From positions 62,001-126,000 of the forward strand of contig NZ_QWFZ01000033.1 of the NCBI RefSeq assembly GCF_003576315.1: a stretch of 64,000 nucleotides of DNA. The letters are read 5' to 3'. Positions 4,373 to 28,408 of this stretch are shown piece by piece. The translations under genes were made by a program, and so were the position numbers. The notes below the pieces were generated by a model that saw only the letters and a program-made list of their open reading frames with translations, had not been told where the DNA came from and did no database searches. Position 1 is the stretch's first letter. Every line of letters begins with the position of its first letter. The DNA is from Henriciella mobilis (GTDB lineage: Bacteria; Pseudomonadota; Alphaproteobacteria; Caulobacterales; Hyphomonadaceae).

Positions 4373-5299
4373 ATGGCTATCCGGCATTTTATCGATCTAT
4401 GGCAGCTTGAGAGTTCTGAGCTGCGCGCCATCCTGGATGAGGCTCATGCCATGAAGTCGGCCCGTGCGGGCTGGCCGAAAGGCAAGGTCGACGACGGCGC
4501 GCCGCTGGACGGGCACATCCTGGCGATGATCTTCGAGAAATCCTCGACGCGCACGCGCACGAGTTTCGATGTCGGAATCCGCCAGCTGGGCGGCTCTTCC
4601 ATCGTGATGAATTCAGGTGACATGCAGCTCGGCCGCGGCGAGAGCATCGGCGATACCGCGCGCGTCCTCTCGCGTTATGTCGACCTCGTCATGATCCGGG
4701 CGAATGATCATTCCGATGTGGAAGACTTTGCCGAGTCGGCCTCTGTCCCGGTGATCAACGGGCTGACGGACCGCTCCCATCCCTGTCAGATCATGGCGGA
4801 CCTCTTGACGCTTGAAGAGCATGGCCTCGACCTGAAGGGCGCGCGGCTGGCCTGGGTCGGGGATGGCAACAATGTCTGCTCTTCCTTCATCCACGCGTCT
4901 GCCAAGTTCGGCTTCACGCTCGCGGTGGGCACGCCGGACCGCTATGCACCGGAAGAGGATGATGTCGAGCTTGCCCGCGAGCTTCAGGGCCGTGTCGAAC
5001 TCTACGACACCGCCGAGGACGCCGTCGCCGGCGCCGATGTTGTTATCGCCGACACCTTCGTCTCCATGGGTGACACCGACGCCGATGAGCGCCTGGAAGA
5101 GCTGGAACCCTTCGCCGTCACCGAGGAGCTGATGGATCTCGCCCAGCCCGGCGCGAAATTCCTGCACTGCCTGCCGGCCCACCGGGGCGAGGAAGTCGAC
5201 AGCGAAGTCATCGACGGGCCCAACTCCCTGGTCTTCGACGAAGCCGAAAACCGTCTCCACGCCCAGAAGGCGATCATGCGCTGGTGCCTGGACAAGTAG
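4373..5299 (+). CDS. argF: Ornithine carbamoyltransferase
   Basis: 308 residues, the usual size for anabolic OTCase. It joins carbamoyl phosphate and ornithine to citrulline in arginine synthesis. Visible motifs are the carbamoyl-phosphate site STRTR at residues 58-62, HPCQ at 136-139, and the ornithine-binding/catalytic HCLP at 265-268 followed by AHRGEEV. The SMG loop reads [10 protein letters not shown] good ribosome site (AGGAGG) precedes the ATG by about 6 bases. No argD is adjacent in the window, so the gene appears to stand alone here. Confidence 0.95.
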
Positions 5300-5447
5300 T
5301 TGGTCGGGTGACCAGCCGGGCCTCTCGCTAGGGCAGGCTTTCCAAGGGACGGGTGTCCTGACAGTGTAAACCTGCATGTCAGACTGAGCGGCGCGAATAA
5401 AGACGCCGCCGGGACGATGCTGTGAGGAAACACCGGAGGAAGACCCC

Positions 5448-20353: not shown

Positions 20354-20503
20354 CTACTTCTTCTTCACCGCACCCTGCAGGGTGAAACTGAAGGCGAGCG
20401 AAAGGATCAGCGGCACCCAGATCGGGAGCGTTCCCAGCCCGGGCGCTTCAAGCGCCGCAGCCAGATGATCATCGACACACCACCAAAGCAGGAACAGAAA
20501 CAT
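20354..20503 (-). CDS. 49-residue membrane protein upstream of the GTA cluster
   Basis: Short gene from ATG 20503 with an excellent ribosome site (GGAGG) about 9 bases upstream. The product begins MFLFLLWWCVDD and has a second hydrophobic segment (LPIWVPLILSLAFSFTL) ending in KKK. That is one or two TM helices with a positive, probably cytoplasmic, tail. No family was recognised. It is divergent from the terminase gene, so the 93 bp between the starts must hold promoters for both. Confidence 0.55.
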   Translation of the reverse strand: MFLFLLWWCVDDHLAAALEAPGLGTLPIWVPLILSLAFSFTLQGAVKKK

Positions 20504-20596
20504 GCTCTTCGCCCTCCAGTCTTGCAGGCATGATAACCGGCCGTGCGAAGCGGGCAATCCGTCCCACCCTCCGGTGCCACCAGCTATTGCCCGTTC

Positions 20597-21847
20597 ATGA
20601 CCGATCTTCAGCCGCGCGCCCGCCCTGGGCTGCCTTTCCTGCTCAGCGCGCGCGGCGTGCAGTGCGATCCGCCGGGAGACTGGCGGACCTGGCTGTTCAT
20701 GGGCGGGCGCGGCTCCGGCAAGACGCGGGCCGGTGCAGAATGGGTGCGCCGCCTCGCCCTGTTCGGTGGGGCGCGGCGGATTGCGCTCGTCGGGCCGACC
20801 TTCAGCGATGTACGCGAAGTGATGATCGAGGGCGTGTCGGGCCTGCGGGCGATCGTGCGTCCGGGCGAATTGCCGCCGTATTACCAGGCCTCCCGGCACC
20901 GCCTGATCTGGCCGAACGGGGCTGCGGCCTACGCTTTTTCTGCGGAGGATCCGGATGGGCTTCGCGGCCCTCAATTCGATGCCGCCTGGTGTGACGAGGC
21001 GGCGGCCTGGCGCAATGGACGCGATGTCTGGGACATGCTGCAGATGACGCTCCGGCTTGGCACCAATCCACGCGCCATGGTCACGACGACACCAAAACCC
21101 GTGCAGCTCATCCGCCAGCTGGTGAAGGATCCGTCTGTGGCTATCACGCGGTCGTCGACGCGCGCCAATGCCCAGCACCTGTCGCCAGCTTTCCTGAGCC
21201 ATGTCGAGCGAACCTATGCCAACACCAAGCTTGGACGCCAGGAGCTGGATGGCGAATTGCTGGATGCGCCGGAAAGCGTGCTCTGGACGCGTGCCCTTAT
21301 CGACCGGGTGACGCTGGGAACGGTCCCGGGCCCGTTGTCCGACGTCATCATTGCCGTCGATCCGCCAGCAGGGACCGGCCTCCAGGCCGATGCCTGCGGT
21401 ATTGTTGCGGTTGGCCTCAGGCGTATGCCGGGTGCGCCGGATACCGCTTTCGTCCTTGGAGATGCGACAGTCCGGAGCCTGCCGCCGCATGAGTGGGCCT
21501 CCCGTGTGGTTTCCGCCGCCAGCCGGACGGGCGCCAGCCGTATCATCGCCGAAGCCAATCAGGGCGGGGAGATGATCCGCAGCATCCTCTACAATGCGGG
21601 CTGCCACCATCCTGTGACACTGCGCCATGCCCGGCTGTCGAAGCATGCTCGCGCCATGCCCGTCGGGGCGCTCTACGAGCAGGGCCGGGTTTTCCACATC
21701 GGTGGCTTTCCCGAACTCGAAGAAGAGATGATGGCCTTCGGCACTGCCGCGATGAAAGGTTCGCCCGACAGGGTCGATGCGCTGGTCTGGGCCGTCACCG
21801 CGCTGCTACTCGATGACCAGGGCGAGCCGAGCATTCAACGCCTGTGA
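20597..21847 (+). CDS. GTA large terminase (gp2)
   Basis: 416 residues from ATG 20597. An upstream in-frame start at 20543 would add a segment unlike the family. The Walker A motif is GGRGSGKTRAGAEW, followed by VGPTFSDVREVMIEG and a Walker B-type stretch FDAAWCDEAAAW. The nuclease half carries IIAVDPPAGTG and later an acidic DRVDALVWAVTALLL. It powers DNA entry into the procapsid and makes the headful cut. It is first in the cluster. No clear Shine-Dalgarno precedes it. Confidence 0.93.
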   Translation: MTDLQPRARPGLPFLLSARGVQCDPPGDWRTWLFMGGRGSGKTRAGAEWVRRLALFGGARRIALVGPTFSDVREVMIEGVSGLRAIVRPGELPPYYQASRHRLIWPNGAAAYAFSAEDPDGLRGPQFDAAWCDEAAAWRNGRDVWDMLQMTLRLGTNPRAMVTTTPKPVQLIRQLVKDPSVAITRSSTRANAQHLSPAFLSHVERTYANTKLGRQELDGELLDAPESVLWTRALIDRVTLGTVPGPLSDVIIAVDPPAGTGLQADACGIVAVGLRRMPGAPDTAFVLGDATVRSLPPHEWASRVVSAASRTGASRIIAEANQGGEMIRSILYNAGCHHPVTLRHARLSKHARAMPVGALYEQGRVFHIGGFPELEEEMMAFGTAAMKGSPDRVDALVWAVTALLLDDQGEPSIQRL

Positions 21848-21866
21848 GCCTCCCGATGGAGGAGCG

Positions 21867-21998
21867 ATGAACAATCCTCCCGCCAGATATCCCGCAATGA
21901 CGGGCAGGTTCCGGAAAGCGTCAGACCGCAGAGGCGGCCCGTCTAGTCTCACCATCATCGAGACACACCGGGAAGGACGGCATCGCTGTCTGCCCTGA
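21867..21998 (+). CDS. Possible 43-residue ORF between terminase and portal
   Basis: A short frame whose ATG has a very good ribosome site (GGAGGAG, 4-5 bases upstream). It fills the otherwise empty 168-bp gap between gp2 and gp3. The product is basic and polar (begins MNNPPARYPAMTG) with no recognisable domain. A real small protein would be unusual at this spot in RcGTA-type clusters. It may instead be a spacer whose SD is fortuitous. Confidence 0.25.
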   Translation: MNNPPARYPAMTGRFRKASDRRGGPSSLTIIETHREGRHRCLP

Positions 21999-22015
21999 AG
22001 CCGGAGACATCGTGC

Positions 22016-23128
22016 ATGAAGTGGCCATGGCAAAGCGCGGAAACCCGCTCATCCTCATCGCTTGTCGCCCTTGCAAACCTGCCGACGGGGCAGTGGGGCC
22101 GCATGGATGCGGGGGCGCTGATGCGCGACGGCTATATCGGAAACGCCGTCGCCTATCGCTGCGTGCGAATGATTGCCGAGGCGGCTGCCTCCATTCCGCT
22201 AGCCTGCAATGATGATGACGCCGCGCAGCTGCTCGCCCATCCTTCGCCCGACGAAGCCGGACATGTGTTTCTGGAGCGCCTCTATGGAGACCTGCAGATC
22301 ACCGGCAATGCCTGGGCCGAGGCTGTTACGCTGGCGGGTGATGCCCAACCGAAAGGCATCTTTCCGCTTCGTGCCGATACGGTCCGCGCCGAAACGAGCG
22401 CGCAGGGCGCCCTGACAGGCTGGGCGGTCCGCCAGCGCCGCGGGCAACGTATCATCCAGCATGAAGCTGATGGCTGGAGCCCGGTGCTTCACCTGAAGCT
22501 CTACCATCCGTCCGATGGCATTTACGGCCTCTCGCCGCTGGCCGCCGCGCGCAAGGCGCTCGACCTGCACAATGGCGCCGCTGCCTGGGCCAAGGCCCTC
22601 ATCGACAATGCGGCTCGCCCGTCTGGCGCGCTGGTCTATGGCCGTGATGGCGGGTCCCTGACCCCGGATCAGTTCGACCGTCTGAAAGCTGAACTGGAAG
22701 CGACCCATACCGGTAGCGCGAATGCGGGCCGTCCGCTCCTGCTCGATGGCGGGCTGGACTGGAAGCCGATGTCGCTGACGCCGGCCGACATGGATTTTGC
22801 CGGGACGCGCCACGCAGCCGCCCGCGAGATTGCGCTGGCCTTCGGTGTGCCGCCGATGCTGCTCGGTATCCCCGGCGACAACACCTACGCGACCTACCGC
22901 GAAGCCAACATCGCCTTCTGGCGCCTGACGGTCCTGCCGCTGGTGCAGAAGGTGGCGAGTGCGCTCTCCATCTGGCTGTCGGCCCGGTTCGAGGACGTCG
23001 TGATCACGCCAGACCTCGATGAGGTTCCAGCCTTCGCGGCTGAACGCGAGGCGCTCTGGTCCCGCTTGGAAGCTGCGAGTTTCCTGACCGATGCCGAGAA
23101 ACGCAAGCTGGCGGGGGTGGATGAATGA
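22016..23128 (+). CDS. GTA HK97-family portal protein (gp3)
   Basis: 370 residues. Portal features are the N-terminal NAVAYRCVRMIAEAAASIPL block, GNAWAEAVTL, PVLHLKLYHPSDGIYGLSPLAAARKAL, the helical IDNAARPSGALVY and the C-terminal AREIALAFGVPPMLLGIPGDNTYATYREA. That last block is diagnostic for HK97-type portals. It forms the dodecameric ring for DNA passage at one capsid vertex. The stop overlaps the ATG of gp3.5 by 4 bp. Confidence 0.92.
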   Translation: MKWPWQSAETRSSSSLVALANLPTGQWGRMDAGALMRDGYIGNAVAYRCVRMIAEAAASIPLACNDDDAAQLLAHPSPDEAGHVFLERLYGDLQITGNAWAEAVTLAGDAQPKGIFPLRADTVRAETSAQGALTGWAVRQRRGQRIIQHEADGWSPVLHLKLYHPSDGIYGLSPLAAARKALDLHNGAAAWAKALIDNAARPSGALVYGRDGGSLTPDQFDRLKAELEATHTGSANAGRPLLLDGGLDWKPMSLTPADMDFAGTRHAAAREIALAFGVPPMLLGIPGDNTYATYREANIAFWRLTVLPLVQKVASALSIWLSARFEDVVITPDLDEVPAFAAEREALWSRLEAASFLTDAEKRKLAGVDE

Positions 23129-23352
23129 TCGAGAAGAAGCTGACGGCTGGCTTCCTGCTGGCCATCGCGATCCAGACGGGCGGCGCGCTGGTCTGGGCCG
23201 GGGCGGCGGCGGAGCGGATATCCACGCTTGAGCATCGCGTTGAGCTGTCCCGGCCGGTCGCCGAGCGCCTGGCCCGCGTGGAGACAGAACTCGGCGCGGT
23301 GAAAGACCAGCTCGACCGGATAGAGACACGGCTGGAGCGCGCCGATGATTAG
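23125..23352 (+). CDS. GTA gp3.5-like small membrane/coiled-coil protein
   Basis: 75 residues with an N-terminal hydrophobic helix (LTAGFLLAIAIQTGGALVWAG) and a charged heptad-like C-terminal half (ERLARVETELGAVKDQLDRIETRLERAD). A small gene of this type lies between portal and protease in many GTA clusters (gp3.5). Its function is unknown. The 4-bp overlap upstream and 8-bp overlap downstream show it is part of the operon. Confidence 0.7.
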   Translation: MIEKKLTAGFLLAIAIQTGGALVWAGAAAERISTLEHRVELSRPVAERLARVETELGAVKDQLDRIETRLERADD

Positions 23353-23755
23353 CGCGCCGGTGCTTATCGAAGGCTATGCGGCCGTGTTCGGGGCCGTGGA
23401 CCTGTCGGGCGACGTGGTCCGGGCCGGCGCCTTTGCGCGCAGCCTGAAGTCCGGTCCTGTGCCGATGCTGTTGCAGCACCGGCAGGGGGCCATCGCGGGC
23501 CGTTGGACACGGGTCATCGAGGATGGACGCGGGCTTTTCGTCCGAGGTCTGATCGAGCGGCCAGGTGCGCAGACTCTGGCCAGGGCTGGTCTCGACGGCC
23601 TGTCCATTGGCTTTCGGGCCCGGCTCTGGACGCCGCGGGTAGGGGGCGGCCGTGACCTGAAGGAGGTGGACCTCGTCGAGGTCTCGCTGGTCGCCGAGCC
23701 AATGCAGCCGCTTGCCAGATTCAAACAGTTTGGAGCGGCCGCGCGGGCGGCGTGA
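23345..23755 (+). CDS. GTA prohead protease (gp4)
   Basis: 136 residues, HK97 U35-type prohead protease. It begins IEGYAAVFGAVDLSGDVVRAGAF. The likely catalytic His is H45 (MLLQHRQG) and the catalytic Ser is S87 (LDGLSIGF). It removes the scaffold-like N-terminus of the capsid protein. It is shorter than typical gp4 and ends in an Ala/Arg tail, AARAA. The DNA of this tail is repeated 282 bp downstream, next to the capsid gene (see direct repeat features). Confidence 0.87.
   Translation: MISAPVLIEGYAAVFGAVDLSGDVVRAGAFARSLKSGPVPMLLQHRQGAIAGRWTRVIEDGRGLFVRGLIERPGAQTLARAGLDGLSIGFRARLWTPRVGGGRDLKEVDLVEVSLVAEPMQPLARFKQFGAAARAA
23737..23751. repeat. 15-bp direct repeat, copy 1 (inside gp4 end)
   Basis: The sequence GGCCGCGCGGGCGGC covers the last codons of gp4. 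An identical copy lies at 24019-24033. In both copies the repeat is followed by a TGA one base later, in the reading frame that yields AARAA-stop. This is what a target-site or recombination duplication at the gene end would leave. Confidence 0.8.
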
Positions 23756-23765
23756 ATGCGGAGAA

Positions 23766-23978
23766 TTAGAAGCCACCTCCGAAATTTGTCGGATCTGAAT
23801 TGGGGCGATTTTCGCCCTTCGGCAGAGCCTCTCCGTAAGAGCCGAGTACAACCCAGGCGATCGCCAAGATGAGCGTCAAGGCGCCACCAATCGACGCCGA
23901 GAGATAACCACCTTTGGCGAATGAAATCGCCGAAACGATGAAGCTGAATATCAGCATTGGGACGATGAAGCGCTTCAT
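23766..23978 (-). CDS. Inserted 70-residue membrane protein on the opposite strand
   Basis: Starts at ATG 23978 on the minus strand and ends just after gp4. The product has a hydrophobic N-terminal helix (RFIVPMLIFSFIVSAISFA), a second helix (SASIGGALTLILAIAWVVLG) and a polar tail (SYGEALPKGENRPNSDPTNF). It is the only reverse-strand gene within the GTA cluster. Its DNA is about 50% GC by hand count, against mid-60s on both sides. It is bounded by 15-bp direct repeats. No good ribosome site is visible and the family is not recognised, so it could be a cargo (moron-like) gene or a decaying insertion. Confidence 0.5.
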   Translation of the reverse strand: MKRFIVPMLIFSFIVSAISFAKGGYLSASIGGALTLILAIAWVVLGSYGEALPKGENRPNSDPTNFGGGF

Positions 23979-24018
23979 TCGCGAAGAGTAGATCAGTTCA
24001 AACTGAATTGGAAATATT

Positions 24019-24033
24019 GGCCGCGCGGGCGGC
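24019..24033. repeat. 15-bp direct repeat, copy 2 (upstream of capsid gene)
   Basis: Exact copy of 23737-23751, followed by CTGAGAAAGGAG and the capsid ATG at 24050. If the 282 bp from one copy to the next were removed, gp4 would still end in AARAA-stop and sit 12 bp from the capsid ATG, the close spacing expected of a GTA operon. Confidence 0.8.
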
Positions 24034-24049
24034 CTGAGAAAGGAGAAAA

Positions 24050-25228
24050 ATGACCAAGGAAACCAAGATGGCCGGGACGGACGTGAAGTCGCTGGCCGCC
24101 GACATGATGGCCGCATTCGAGGCCTATAAACAGGTCAATGATGCCCGGCTTTCGGAGATTGAATCGAAGGGGGCGGCCGATACGCTTCTTGATGAGAAGC
24201 TGAAGAAGATCGACCGCCGCCTCGACCAGCTGAGCCTGAAGGCCGCCCGTCCGGTGGACGGCGCTCCGGCTAGCGAGGCTGAGGGAGAGCGTTCGCAGGC
24301 CTGGTCTCGCTACCTGCGAACCGGCGACGAGAGCGGCCTGTCGCGGCTTGATGTGAAGGCCCTCACGGCCGGGACCGATGACCAGGGCGGCTACACGGCC
24401 CCGCCGGAACTCGACCGGCTGATTGAGGCGCGGCTGATGCAGGCTTCGCCGATGCGCCAGATTGCGAGCGTGCGCCAGACCTCAGCGGGCGTCTATCGCA
24501 AGCCTGTCAGCCTTGGCGTCGGTGCGGCATGGGCGGGCGAGGAAGACGCACGCACGCAGTCCACGACGGCCGGCTTGAGCCTGCTCGAATTCCCGGCCGG
24601 CGAACTATACTCCATGCCGGCGGCGACACAGACCCTGCTTGAGGATTCCTACGCAGACGTCGATGAATGGCTGGCCGACGAGGTCGAGGCGGCCTTCTCC
24701 ATCCAGGAGAGCGCGGCCTTTGTGAACGGCGATGGCGACGGCAAGCCGAAGGGCTTTCTCGATTACACCATTGTCGCCGAGGCCTCGCATGCCTGGGGCC
24801 AGATCGGCTCGGTCGCGGGGGACTTCACCGCCGCCGATGCCGGTGACCAGATCATCGACCTGATCCAGACGCCGAAGTCGCAGTTCCGGTCGAATGGCCG
24901 CTTCGCGATGAACCGGCGCACGGTGGCGGCCGTCCGCAAGCTGAAGGACGCGGACGGGCGCTATCTTTGGCGGCCTGGCATGAATGGCGAGGCGCAGACC
25001 ATCTTCGGCTATCCGGTCACGGAGCTGGAAGACATGCCGGATATCGGAACGGGCAATGCTGCCATCGCCTTCGGTGACTTCCGCCGCGGCTATCTCATCG
25101 CCGACCGGCAGGGCGCCCGCGTGCTTCGCGATCCATATTCGGCCAAGCCCTACGTCCTTTTCTACACGACGAAGCGCGTGGGCGGCGGCGTCCAGAACTT
25201 CGATGCCATCAAGGTGATGGTGTTCTGA
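24050..25228 (+). CDS. GTA HK97-family major capsid protein (gp5)
   Basis: 392 residues. The N-terminal ~100 residues are charged and helical (delta/scaffold region). The mature HK97 fold probably begins around LTAGTDDQGGYTAPPELDRL. Typical capsid blocks follow: QTLLEDSYADVDEWLADEVEAAFS, FAMNRRTVAAVRKLKDADGRYLWRP and IAFGDFRRGYLIADRQG. It has a strong site (AAAGGAG) 8 bases before the ATG. The downstream hairpin may make this the most abundant product of the cluster. Confidence 0.94.
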   Translation: MTKETKMAGTDVKSLAADMMAAFEAYKQVNDARLSEIESKGAADTLLDEKLKKIDRRLDQLSLKAARPVDGAPASEAEGERSQAWSRYLRTGDESGLSRLDVKALTAGTDDQGGYTAPPELDRLIEARLMQASPMRQIASVRQTSAGVYRKPVSLGVGAAWAGEEDARTQSTTAGLSLLEFPAGELYSMPAATQTLLEDSYADVDEWLADEVEAAFSIQESAAFVNGDGDGKPKGFLDYTIVAEASHAWGQIGSVAGDFTAADAGDQIIDLIQTPKSQFRSNGRFAMNRRTVAAVRKLKDADGRYLWRPGMNGEAQTIFGYPVTELEDMPDIGTGNAAIAFGDFRRGYLIADRQGARVLRDPYSAKPYVLFYTTKRVGGGVQNFDAIKVMVF

Positions 25229-25246
25229 GCCTGATCCTGGCCGGGG

Positions 25247-25271
25247 CGGGCGATGCGCTCGCCCGGCTTTT
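25247..25271 (+). terminator. Terminator-like hairpin after the capsid gene
   Basis: CGGGCGA and TCGCCCG form a perfect 7-bp stem around a 5-base loop, with TTTT at 25268-25271 two bases later. It lies 18 bp after the capsid stop, inside the operon. With a T-tract this short, it is more likely a partial terminator or a 3'-end stabiliser that raises capsid mRNA over downstream tail genes. Confidence 0.5.
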
Positions 25272-25303
25272 CCGTTCAAAACGAAACCATAAGGAACAAT
25301 GCC

Positions 25304-25507
25304 ATGTTTGAATCCATCGCCGTATCGCTGCTGCGCCAGGCCGCTCTGCTGACCAAGCCGCAGCAGGACGAGTTCACCACGCGGATCGCCGAAGCCATCG
25401 CCACGCTCGTCAGCTCGACCGGGACACAGATTGATGACGAGCTTCTGCGGTCGATCGGCCTGCCGCTCGGCGGCGCCGTGATCGAGAAGCTGCAGGCGCT
25501 GGTCTAG
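25304..25507 (+). CDS. 67-residue GTA accessory protein, unknown
   Basis: From ATG 25304 with AAGGAAC about 8 bases upstream. The product is helical and amphipathic: MFESIAVSLLRQAALLTKP, then DEFTTRIAEAIATLVSS and a C-terminal IEKLQALV. It lies alone between two hairpins, separated from both capsid and gp6, so it may be translated with the capsid mRNA. I do not recognise it among the numbered RcGTA genes. It is not the missing gp7, which usually follows gp6 and is beta-rich. Confidence 0.55.
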   Translation: MFESIAVSLLRQAALLTKPQQDEFTTRIAEAIATLVSSTGTQIDDELLRSIGLPLGGAVIEKLQALV

Positions 25508-25515
25508 ACCACTAT

Positions 25516-25538
25516 CCGGCGGGCGTACGGCCCGCCGG
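25516..25538. terminator. 9-bp GC-rich hairpin upstream of gp6
   Basis: CCGGCGGGC and GCCCGCCGG are perfect arms around the loop GTACG. No T-run follows, so classic intrinsic termination is not supported. As a very stable stem just before gp6 it may block exonucleases or mark an mRNA processing point. Confidence 0.4.
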
Positions 25539-25569
25539 TCCATCCCTCCAACACAATCAGGTATCGACC

Positions 25570-26115
25570 ATGACACTGACGGTGCTCACACCGCCAGGCG
25601 AGGAGGCTTTGCCGCTCGCCGAGGCAAAAGCCTTTCTCAGGATCGGCCATGACGGCGAGGATACGCTGGTCGCTGATCTTGCTGCCGGCGCCCGGGCGCG
25701 GCTGGAAGAAGCCGCCGGCCTTGCACTGGTAACACGGACGCTGCGGCGGACCTGTTACGCATGGCCGACGTCGGTGATGCGGCGCGGGATTGCCCTGCGC
25801 CCCGGCCCGGTGGTCTCGCTGACTGGTGTTCGAACCGTTGATGCAGGTGAGGCCGCCACCGACCGCTCCGACCGGTTCCAGCTGGCCGCCGGACGTCTTT
25901 GCCTGAGACCCGGAGCCGCGCTCCCCACACTGTCGTCAGGTTCGCGGGTCGAGATCGATTTCACGGCCGGCTTCGGCGCGGCATCAGAGATACCCGATGA
26001 CCTCGTCCATGCGCTCAAGCTGATCCTGCTGGATGCCTATCGCCGCAATGGCGAGGTGGGCCTGCCGCAAGAGGCGAAGGCGATCATCGCCGCGCGCCGG
26101 GAGGTGCTGATATGA
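25570..26115 (+). CDS. GTA head-tail connector (gp6)
   Basis: 181 residues. The opening LPLAEAKAFLRIGHDGEDTLVADLAAGARARLEEAAGL is the typical four-helix start of gp6-like head-tail connectors. A beta region with PLRPGPVVSLTGV-like text follows, and the C-terminus is FTAGFGAASEIPDDLVHALKLILLDAYRRNGE. It binds below the portal. The ATGA overlap with the next gene leaves no room for gp7. Confidence 0.85.
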   Translation: MTLTVLTPPGEEALPLAEAKAFLRIGHDGEDTLVADLAAGARARLEEAAGLALVTRTLRRTCYAWPTSVMRRGIALRPGPVVSLTGVRTVDAGEAATDRSDRFQLAAGRLCLRPGAALPTLSSGSRVEIDFTAGFGAASEIPDDLVHALKLILLDAYRRNGEVGLPQEAKAIIAARREVLI

Positions 26116-26543
26116 GCGCTGACGGCATGATCTGGTCGGCCGAGGCCGCCCTGGAGCGCGCGGTTCTGATCGCCCTTCGCGCCGATACCGACGTTCAGGC
26201 AATCTTCGGCAATCCGGCCCGGATCTTCGATGATGAAACGCCGGAGCCGGCCTTTCCCTATGCCGAACTCGAGCGCCATGAGGTCGAGGGGCGCGGTTCG
26301 GCCGGCGCCTCGGGCCATGCCCATACGCTGAGCTTCGCCATTCATTCGCGAGATGGCGGGCGGGCGGCAGCCAAGGAGGCCTTAGGCGCCTTGCGCGCAG
26401 CTTGCGAGCGCATGTCGCTGACGCTGTCTGGCCAGCGGGTTGTCCTCATCCAACCGGTCTATTCCGACGTCCTGCGCGCGCCGGACCTTCGCAGTTTTCG
26501 CGGGCTCCTCAGGGTCCGCATCATCACAGAGGAGGCAGCCTGA
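26112..26543 (+). CDS. GTA tail terminator/completion protein (gp8, DUF3168)
   Basis: 143 residues of the DUF3168 family. A helix (AEAALERAVLIALRAD) is followed by VQAIFGNPARIFDDETPEPAFPYAELERHEVEGRGSAG and HTLSFAIHSRDGGRAAAKEALGALRAAC. It caps the tail tube during joining to the head. It overlaps gp6 by 4 bp, and the start of gp9 sits on its stop codon. Confidence 0.82.
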   Translation: MSADGMIWSAEAALERAVLIALRADTDVQAIFGNPARIFDDETPEPAFPYAELERHEVEGRGSAGASGHAHTLSFAIHSRDGGRAAAKEALGALRAACERMSLTLSGQRVVLIQPVYSDVLRAPDLRSFRGLLRVRIITEEAA

Positions 26544-26962
26544 TGGCAGGCCAGAGAGGACGCGATGTCCTGATCAAGATTTCCGATGGCGGTGATCCGG
26601 AGACGTTCGTCACGCTCGCCGGTATCCGGTCCAGCCAGTTCGATCTCAACCAGCAGCCTGTCGATGCCACCAGTGCGGACAGCCCGTTCGGATGGAGGGA
26701 ATTGCTGGCGGGCGCTGGGTTGAAGAGCATGCGGGTGCGCGGGCAGGGCCTGTTCAAGGATACGGCCAGCGATGAACGCATGCGCAGCGTCTTCTTTGCG
26801 GGCACGATTGCACGCTGGCAGCTCATCGTCCCCGGGCTCGGCAGCTTCACCGGTCCGTTCCAGATCGCCCAGATGAACTGGGGCGGGACCCATGACGGCG
26901 AAGCGACCTTCTCGGTTGACCTGCAAAGTGCCGGCGAACCTGTCTTCGGAGCAGCCTCATGA
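26543..26962 (+). CDS. GTA major tail protein (gp9)
   Basis: 139 residues from ATG 26543, preceded by GAGGAGG. This start gives the normal family N-terminus, MAGQRGRDVLIKI; a longer frame is open upstream but overlaps gp8. Motifs are LAGIRSSQFDLNQQPVDAT and the C-terminal MNWGGTHDGEATFSVDLQSAG, as in the TP901-1-like tail tube proteins of GTAs. It polymerises into the tail tube. Confidence 0.87.
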   Translation: MAGQRGRDVLIKISDGGDPETFVTLAGIRSSQFDLNQQPVDATSADSPFGWRELLAGAGLKSMRVRGQGLFKDTASDERMRSVFFAGTIARWQLIVPGLGSFTGPFQIAQMNWGGTHDGEATFSVDLQSAGEPVFGAAS

Positions 26963-27249
26963 ACGGGGCACGCGGCGAAGCAGCGATCGAGATCGATGGT
27001 AGGCAGCACCGCCTTTGTCTGACGCTGGGCGCTCTGGCGGAACTGGAAACGGCATTTGGCTGCCGGACCCTCTCTGAACTTCAGACCCGACTTCGAAGGC
27101 TCTCTGCGAGCGAGCTTTCAACCGTGCTCGCCATCCTGTTGCGAGCAGGTGGTGAAGCTGAGGCCGCCGCAAATCTGACCGGCGCTGCCCTCAGCCCGCT
27201 GGCTGCGGCGACGGCGATTGCGGAGGCCTTCCATGCTGCCCTGGGCTGA
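26959..27249 (+). CDS. GTA gp10 family protein
   Basis: 96 residues. The opening MNGARGEAAIEIDGR and LCLTLGALAELETAFGC are typical of the GTA gp10 family (gene transfer agent family protein). It is probably a tail assembly factor that works with gp10.1 as the chaperone pair for the tape measure. It overlaps gp9 by 4 bp and gp10.1 by 17 bp. Confidence 0.8.
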   Translation: MNGARGEAAIEIDGRQHRLCLTLGALAELETAFGCRTLSELQTRLRRLSASELSTVLAILLRAGGEAEAAANLTGAALSPLAAATAIAEAFHAALG

Positions 27250-27427
27250 CATGTTCCGCCAGGCTGTCGCGATGGGGCTTTCGCCCCAGGATTTCTGGGC
27301 CTGCTCGGTCCGCGAGTGGCGCTGGCTTTCAGGCGGCCATGAGAGCGGCCTTGTCCGGCAGCACCTGAATGAGCTGATCCGGCAATTTCCTGACAAAGAG
27401 GAGGTCCCTTCCAATGGAACCGTATGA
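27233..27427 (+). CDS. GTA tail assembly chaperone (gp10.1, DUF2376 type)
   Basis: 64 residues from ATG 27233, which has GGAGG 6 bases upstream. The signature is PWADMFRQAVAMGLSPQDFW followed by CSVREWRWLSGG, the short phage tail assembly chaperone of GTAs. In tailed phages gp10/gp10.1-like pairs hold the tape measure. Here there is a plain overlap of frames and no obvious slippery heptamer. Confidence 0.75.
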   Translation: MLPWADMFRQAVAMGLSPQDFWACSVREWRWLSGGHESGLVRQHLNELIRQFPDKEEVPSNGTV

Positions 27428-27791
27428 AGACCAGCTTCAGCGCGCGGGCGACGCCCTGCAGGCGCTGGCCGACGGCCCGGGCAAGGCGGCTGCCGAAACG
27501 CTCGAGGCGGCGTTTGGCGATGCCAGCCTGCGGATCGAACAGGCGCTTGCCCGGGCCGCCCGCAGCGGCGAGCTCGATTTCTCGAACATGGCCCGCTCGG
27601 TCCTGGCCGACCTTGCCCGGATTGCGGCCGAAGCGGCGCTCGCGTCGGCCGGGCTCAACCAGGCGGGTCGATCGATGACGGTGAACCTGTCGATGCAGGA
27701 CGCGTCGCAGGCTCATGCGATCTCCGGATCGGGAAGTGAGCTGTCGAAAACGATCGCGCAGGCGGTCGCGCGGGGAGGGCGGTTCCTGTGA
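27414..27791 (+). CDS. Short GTA tail tape measure protein (gp11)
   Basis: 125 residues, mostly helical (DALQALADGPGKAAAETLEAAF, ARSVLADLARIAAEAALASAG), ending with an Ala-rich AQAVARGGRFL. Position and the C-terminal pattern identify gp11. It is clearly shorter than the ~219 residues known for RcGTA, implying a shorter tail if it sets tail length as in phages. GAGGAGG precedes it. It overlaps gp10.1 by 14 bp and gp12 by 4 bp. Confidence 0.72.
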   Translation: MEPYEDQLQRAGDALQALADGPGKAAAETLEAAFGDASLRIEQALARAARSGELDFSNMARSVLADLARIAAEAALASAGLNQAGRSMTVNLSMQDASQAHAISGSGSELSKTIAQAVARGGRFL

Positions 27792-28408
27792 GCGGTTCGG
27801 CATTTGATGATGTGCGGTTTCCCCTGCCGGTCGGCCCCGGTGCGAGTGGGGGGGCGGCGTGGCGAACGGATGTCGTCACACTCGCCAGCGGCACGGAAGT
27901 GCGCAATGCGAGATGGGCCGGTTCGAGGCGGCGTTGGGATATTGCCAGCGCGGTGTGTTCAACGAGCGACCTTGCCGTGCTCACGGCCTTCTTCGAAGCG
28001 CGCATGGGCCGGCTCCGCGGCTTCCGGTTCCGCGATCCGGCAGATCATTCGAGCGCCATGCCGGGGCAGGCGCCAGGCCCGCAGGACCAGTCCATTGGTA
28101 TGGGCGACGGAGCGACGGACACCTTTCAGCTGGGCAAGGCGTATGGCGGACTGGTCAAGGCTGTCACCAAGCCTGTCGAAGGCACTATCAGTATCGCCGT
28201 CAATGGTGTCCCGCAGGCCACCGGCTGGAGTGTTGACTGTCTTACCGGCGAGATCGCGTTTGATACGCCGCCCGCCAATGGCGCCGCATTGACCGCCGGT
28301 TTCGAGTTCGATTGGCCGGTCCGGTTCGATACCGACCGCCTCGACATCACCCATGAGCTGATCGGCGCAGGGCGCGCCGTCAGTGTTCCGATCATCGAAA
28401 TCCGCTGA
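27788..28408 (+). CDS. GTA distal tail protein (gp12, DUF2460)
   Basis: 206 residues of the DUF2460 family. Signature blocks are FDDVRFPLPVGPGASGGAAW, RRRWDIASAVCSTSDLAVLTAFFEARMGRLRGFRFRDPADHSS and FEFDWPVRFDTDRLDITHELIGAGRAVSVPIIEIR. It forms the distal tail ring that links tube and baseplate. It overlaps gp11 by 4 bp. Confidence 0.9.
   Translation: MSGSAFDDVRFPLPVGPGASGGAAWRTDVVTLASGTEVRNARWAGSRRRWDIASAVCSTSDLAVLTAFFEARMGRLRGFRFRDPADHSSAMPGQAPGPQDQSIGMGDGATDTFQLGKAYGGLVKAVTKPVEGTISIAVNGVPQATGWSVDCLTGEIAFDTPPANGAALTAGFEFDWPVRFDTDRLDITHELIGAGRAVSVPIIEIR

Follow-up and report, generated by a model that had tools for sequence, protein, structure and literature searches.

A predicted small membrane-protein gene in reverse orientation at the gp4–gp5 junction of a Hyphomonadaceae GTA cluster: a candidate moron-like insertion

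The gp4–gp5 junction and its direct repeats

GTAs are usually regarded as stripped, conserved particle-making clusters. What, then, is a short gene on the opposite strand doing between the protease and capsid genes of such a cluster, and how did it get there? The window, i.e., the whole 64 kb stretch of DNA that was analysed, holds a cluster in which Pfam identified terminase, portal, prohead protease (gp4) and HK97-type capsid (gp5). The genes gp2 to gp5 follow each other in order and with the expected domains, which corresponds to the RcGTA-like head-tail cluster of Alphaproteobacteria with its usual order of terminase, portal, S78 protease and HK97-type capsid; the difference is the extra reverse-strand gene at gp4–gp5. 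The numbering of the gp genes follows RcGTA by analogy, as does our label "gp5.5" for the small gene downstream of gp5. The features at the junction are:

23345..23755, + strand: GTA gp4, prohead protease (ORF; Pfam PF04586, E 1.3e-17), with the left repeat within its last codons
23737..23751, + strand: left copy of GGCCGCGCGGGCGGC at the gp4 end, read directly from the sequence
23766..23978, − strand: predicted gene of the 70-aa membrane protein P0001 (ORF), with the tail ...GENRPNSDPTNFGGGF
23979..24018, − strand: leader of the reverse gene, without a clear Shine-Dalgarno by eye and without a sigma-70-type promoter match
23997..24018, + strand: stretch into which the right repeat may imperfectly extend, resembling the gp4 3′ end of relatives
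24019..24033, + strand: right copy of GGCCGCGCGGGCGGC, which together with 24034–24049 equals the empty junction of relatives
24040..24045, + strand: gp5 Shine-Dalgarno AAGGAG, surviving the insertion and in the identical place in empty relatives
24050..25228, + strand: GTA gp5, major capsid protein (Pfam PF05065, E 9e-83)

The 15 bp direct repeat GGCCGCGCGGGCGGC is present at 23737–23751 and 24019–24033, as the initial annotation had described, and reading on from either copy gives AARAA-stop (GCC GCG CGG GCG GCG TGA for one copy, GCC GCG CGG GCG GCC TGA for the other). Such repeats are rare here: in the whole window, only two exact 15-mers were counted that recur in direct orientation at a spacing of 15–600 bp, and GGCCGCGCGGGCGGC is one of the two. 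The GC content of the DNA between the copies (23752–24018) is 50.2%, compared with 65.4% for the GTA cluster (20500–28400), in agreement with the contrast that had been estimated by hand. The P0001 gene and gp4 meet tail to tail, with 10 bp between their stops.

Empty and filled junctions in the genus

The initial annotation had proposed that taking out one repeat and the DNA between would restore a tight gp4–gp5 junction, and had suggested looking for empty sites in related genomes. Both ideas were borne out. The gap between gp4 and gp5 is 12–13 bp in eight same-genus relatives (G005, G012, G004, G018, G017, G020, G014 and G002), and the flanks joined after removal of 282 bp share 58–63 of 70 positions with these eight junctions, aligning without gaps to seven of them (G012 needs three gap positions). 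The right copy plus leader is identical to G004 in 30 of 30 bases. At the gp4 end, four of the eight carry exactly GGCCGCGCGGGCGGC and four carry variants with one or two differences; judging from these ends, GGCCGCGCGGGCGGC is native to the end of gp4 in the genus. The alignments show the P0001 segment to be an insertion relative to these eight empty relatives. An identical gene with its repeats in all relatives, at normal GC, had been named as one result that would speak against this; among 29 genus genomes, we found no DNA relative of the insert at the gp4–gp5 junction.

The right-hand repeat possibly extends beyond 15 bp. Imperfect similarity to the gp4 end of some relatives continues for about 22 bp further upstream (23997–24018), with shuffle p values of 0.003–0.033 in seven of 12 relatives and 0.24–0.91 in the other five, and of 0.053 against the window genome's own gp4. 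Because of this possible upstream extension, a simple short target duplication is not demonstrated. The suggestion that the segment could be a small mobile cassette found no support, and neither did a transposon or MITE: the insert is single copy in its own genome, there are no terminal inverted repeats at its ends, and copies are lacking in relatives. In the DNA search of the 29 genus genomes, the best non-self match had an E of 0.009 over 27 bases, and the longest among the matches listed covered 44 bases.

Junctions vary across the genus. Of the 20 genomes in the genus that carry a GTA-type gp5, 15 show a junction of 8–24 bp and five one of 105–294 bp. The four genomes nearest in gp5 (G009, G010, G021 and G043) hold different spacers of 105–130 bp at gp4–gp5, and those of G043 and G021 include a dispersed repeat that is present in several genus genomes, with at least 21 (G043) and at least 38 (G021) matches in those genomes, most of them, among the matches listed, to one part of about 30 bases. 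The gp4–gp5 spacers of L002, L003, L004 and L032, of 105–130 bp, are related in sequence. No 9-mer common to the insert and the spacers of G009, G021 and G043 was found; GCGAAGAGTAG (23981–23991) also occurs in the G010 spacer at a similar position, as a remnant or by chance.

In the gp3 tree, the window genome groups with G009 and G010 (94/92, 89/92). Since these neighbours carry longer spacers, the immediate ancestor may have had no empty site, and if it had a spacer of the G009/G010 type, the G004-like right copy would need recombination. A recombinant gp4 was considered, as a quick tree put gp4 near G002/G004-type genomes, and was dropped: a careful gp4 tree gave the window genome no firm place and rejects neither grouping (p-AU 0.153 when the five near genomes are kept as one group, 0.062 when gp4 is placed with G002/G004). 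The G002/G004 grouping is rejected by gp3 (5.4e-5) and gp5 (2.6e-4).

A small family of predicted membrane proteins

The 70-residue reverse-strand ORF of the initial annotation is present and its product is predicted to be a membrane protein. Searches of the protein and DNA had been recommended; the DNA matches are given above. As a single query against 5.8 billion proteins, P0001 matched itself only; relatives came from a six-frame search of 105 family genomes, namely G105 (53% identity over 34 residues, E 9.3e-8) and G090 (44% over 54 residues, E 2.6e-7). An alignment of these three sequences brought in 10 further proteins, 108–125 aa long, with E values between 5.6e-27 and 2.5e-11. Nine members, P0005–P0013, are metagenomic. 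Scored with a profile built from the 11 long forms, P0001 reaches 29.8 bits and P0003 35.0, against 10.8 for the best of 4000 shuffles; ten of these long forms had been found with a profile that held P0001, and P0002 alone was found from P0001 by itself. The long forms measure 121–125 residues in ten cases and 108 in P0006. P0001 corresponds to their C-terminal half, as does P0003 (76 aa). A G-E/D-N-R-P tail follows the hydrophobic stretches in all 13 members of the P0001/P0002 family and is conserved across three genera. Shuffling the insert 2000 times never produced a 70-codon ORF starting at ATG with an equally hydrophobic stretch; the length alone was reached in 108 of the shuffles. On this sequence evidence, the P0001 gene is real and its product belongs to a small membrane-protein family. 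The short-form protein P0003 is MRY64_11640, a hypothetical protein of a Hyphomonadaceae bacterium; it shares 58% identity over 31 residues with P0001 and has the tail in common, and it differs in lying outside the GTA cluster of its own genome.

We infer that P0001 spans the inner membrane by two helices and has its tail in the cytoplasm. The two helices are drawn from hydrophobicity and alignment, because the structural model of P0001 has one helix (residues 5–47) and a disordered tail (mean pLDDT 62.7). Four helices appear in the model of the long form (mean pLDDT 57.7), and both models are of low confidence. The dN/dS between G090 and IMG/VR contig L118 was 0.82 on 10 differences, and it gives no support since two of three opposite-strand frames had lower values. 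Matches to P0001 were absent from Pfam (E up to 0.001), PHROGs (0.1), NCBIfam and PADLOC (1), and no holin, lysis or anti-phage defence family matched at the thresholds used. Long forms had sub-threshold matches only, including a PHROG "moron" membrane family (E 0.25). A relation of the long form to cytochrome b561 (CybB) is a weak lead from profile comparisons: its N-terminal half resembles residues 89–123 of 5oc0 (E 2.3e-4), and residues 15–68 of P0010 and P0013 show weak likeness to NCBIfam NF008566 (E 3.5e-4, the best, and 4e-4), far under the curated cut-off (20.4 vs 170 bits). The b561-like half is absent from P0001.

Where do the family members sit? G090, which belongs to another genus, carries a gene of 125 residues in reverse between gp5.5 and gp6, separated from the gp5.5 stop by 1 bp; on IMG/VR contig L118, a family gene is reversed at this place too. 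Sequence comparison and gene order thus show a relative of P0001 inside a second GTA cluster. The other IMG/VR match, L117, is 100% identical and presumably the window genome itself. Between gp5 and gp5.5, L118 has another ORF (5183–5377, +), which runs in reverse relative to the GTA and is hydrophobic at one end. The 76-residue gene of G105 lies outside the GTA, beside a gene that we take to be like clpX, and the GTA of G105, found on a different contig, has ordinary junctions. The family is rare, with members in three of the 105 family genomes and in two of the 60 GTA clusters fetched. The wider searches, which were samples, gave three strong matches in 398 genomes of the order and one credible match, the window's own, in 385 of the class; a phage collection yielded no family match and a plasmid collection nothing convincing. 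Two of the three genome-anchored copies are in a GTA cluster, for which we estimate about 5e-5 under random placement with a 14 kb target, a figure based on these three copies. Weak matches were excluded from the counts: six in five other family genomes (E 0.0165–0.099), G403 (E 0.004, inside a 765-aa ORF), G573 (E 5.5e-4, two stops), four from the order search (E 0.0014–0.0096), one place on an E. coli plasmid (E 0.3) and two ORFs in the fetched GTA clusters (E 3.6 and 9.7).

Extra genes in Hyphomonadaceae clusters and readings of the insert

The initial annotation had assumed that GTA clusters rarely accept cargo, which did not hold for the family: 13 of the 60 Hyphomonadaceae clusters fetched contain extra candidate-gene ORFs (seven small inserts and six large), and five further clusters with gaps >1 kb were counted apart. 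Some of the small-insert ORFs may be short enough to have arisen by chance. The 60 clusters came from 67 family genomes with a gp5 match (G044, G067, G100, G108, G117, G118 and G119 were left out; the G044 junction was read from L034). The scan for small inserts covered gaps of 90–899 bp, excluding gp2–gp3 gaps, gp9–gp11 gaps <200 bp and 12 genomes with large rearranged inserts, of which six were looked at separately together with G009 and G020.

At gp5.5–gp6, other species of the G090 genus hold unrelated small reverse-strand hydrophobic ORFs. G055 has one of 71 aa (L137 7541–7756, −) and G058 a relative of it with 65 aa and 57% identity (L182 277–474, −); this predicted small membrane-protein family had no further match in the 105 family genomes. 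G068 has a reverse hydrophobic ORF of 41 aa with a Shine-Dalgarno-like leader, and G063 and G086 have ones of 32 aa, whose two differences make a dN/dS uninformative; the shortest of these ORFs may be chance. Stop-to-stop distances are 10 (G000), 1 (G090), −4 (G055, G068, G063, G086) and 6 bp (G058). A 183-aa ORF with a signal-peptide-like stretch and without Pfam match was also seen at gp5.5–gp6 of G058 (L182 537–1088, −). Elsewhere, G012 carries a reverse 170-aa lipoprotein-like ORF without Pfam match between gp3 and gp3.5, and gp4–gp5 of G048, G049 and G050 (genus g13; L162, L164, L168) has small membrane ORFs of 72, 134 and 137 aa on the forward strand. Forward-strand extra genes of other kinds are found in G093, G107 and G102, and clusters of other genera contain cellular genes, among them one for a peptidase M24 and several of AHSA1 type. 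Because forward-strand extra genes occur in other genera, reverse orientation is not a rule. Because gp5.5–gp6 holds unrelated small reverse hydrophobic ORFs, gp4–gp5 and gp5.5–gp6 look like accessory slots.

Phage morons, or lysogenic conversion genes, are a known concept of extra phage genes. The P0001 gene resembles them as an extra gene between conserved structural genes that is missing at the matching site in eight relatives, has a base composition unlike its surroundings, lies on the opposite strand and encodes a predicted small membrane protein. It differs in that its host element is a GTA and not a replicating prophage, in that no promoter or terminator was demonstrated, and in that its benefit to the host is putative. 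A promoter scan, which covers the sigma-70 type only, gave no match for the gene, neither of two minus-strand terminator-like sites lies behind the ORF, and Rfam gave no match.

In our judgement, which we hold with modest confidence, the locus probably carries a moron-like cargo gene for a predicted small inner-membrane protein, inserted in reverse at gp4–gp5 of a Hyphomonadaceae GTA; of the natures first suggested for the insert, this is the one that found support. The cargo gene would have entered the junction in reverse and come to lie between two copies of the gp4 end, which would have spared both the stop codon of gp4 and the ribosome-binding site of gp5; both signals are indeed retained, as the initial annotation had pointed out. 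The 70-residue hydrophobic product would be equivalent to the C-terminal half of the 125-residue family. The gene may be expressed alone from the minus strand while the GTA operon is silent, and its protein may act at the membrane to modulate the release or uptake of GTA particles, in the way that phage morons serve prophages. Counted against this reading are the G105 copy outside the GTA, the missing promoter match, the one-helix model and the forward-strand extra genes. A broader proposal, which we consider possible but less likely than not, is that Hyphomonadaceae GTA clusters have dedicated slots beside the capsid gene (gp4–gp5 and gp5.5–gp6) through which species would trade unrelated genes for small membrane or secreted proteins, often reversed, as a "conversion" repertoire governing GTA release, survival and receipt, comparable to prophage morons.

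The main rival, and a serious one, is a neutral insertion, in which a stray cellular gene or half of a gene would have come to rest in a tolerant intergenic site without any role in the GTA. The GTA junctions would simply gather DNA, of which the spacers in the four nearest genomes are an example. These four spacers, with the dispersed repeat in G043 and G021, fit well with it, as do the peptidase M24 and AHSA1-type genes in clusters of other genera, the half-length form of P0001 and the location of the G105 copy. We regard it as possible, well short of probable, in view of the tail conserved across three genera, the presence of two of the three genome copies within GTA clusters, each at another junction, and the recurrence of unrelated small reverse hydrophobic ORFs at gp5.5–gp6, including one ORF family found in two of 105 genomes and in both at this junction. 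Alternatively, a minus-strand promoter in the spacer could produce antisense RNA or interference over gp4 (or gp5.5) and damp the GTA operon, the ORF being secondary. Conservation at the protein level and the absence of a sigma-70-type promoter match or Rfam match make this unlikely, even though the stops lie tail to tail at −4 to 10 bp and the eight empty-site relatives lack such an element at gp4–gp5. Finally, there might have been no insertion, the 15-mers being ordinary Ala/Arg codons and the spacer old and native. GC-rich Ala/Arg ends of gp4 are indeed normal for the genus, and longer spacers are seen in four near relatives as well, yet this reading is disfavoured and, to us, very improbable, with junctions of 8–24 bp in 15 of 20 same-genus GTA loci, a right copy and leader equal to an empty junction (30/30 to G004), and an insert of 50.2% GC with no DNA relative at the junction in 29 genus genomes.

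A membrane-protein family reversed in two GTA clusters, with unrelated genes of like kind at similar sites, would imply that GTAs continue to acquire accessory genes, and the long-standing question of what keeps GTAs and who benefits would become testable by single-gene deletions, given a culturable host or relative. In the parts seen of PMC9836097, PMC10883770, PMC11409702 and PMC13236601, there is no mention of an extra reverse-strand gene at gp4–gp5, and among the titles and abstract openings of the GTA papers listed we found none describing reverse-strand membrane genes in GTA clusters. The part seen of PMC11409702 mentions that insertions vary among the phage relatives of RcGTA, which is a different matter.

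Extra genes of other kinds recur as well. In genus g13, an AHSA1-type gene lies reversed at gp7–gp8 in all three genomes scanned (G048, G049 and G050), which represent three species of this one genus:

L168 9298–9825, − strand: AHSA1-type gene, gp7–gp8
L162 10144–10632, − strand: AHSA1-type gene, gp7–gp8
L164 8385–8873, − strand: AHSA1-type gene, gp7–gp8

At gp5–gp6, G048 has an HTH_3 ORF and G050 a weakly HTH-like one, and ORFs that look similar to AHSA1-type genes were seen in G093 and G107.
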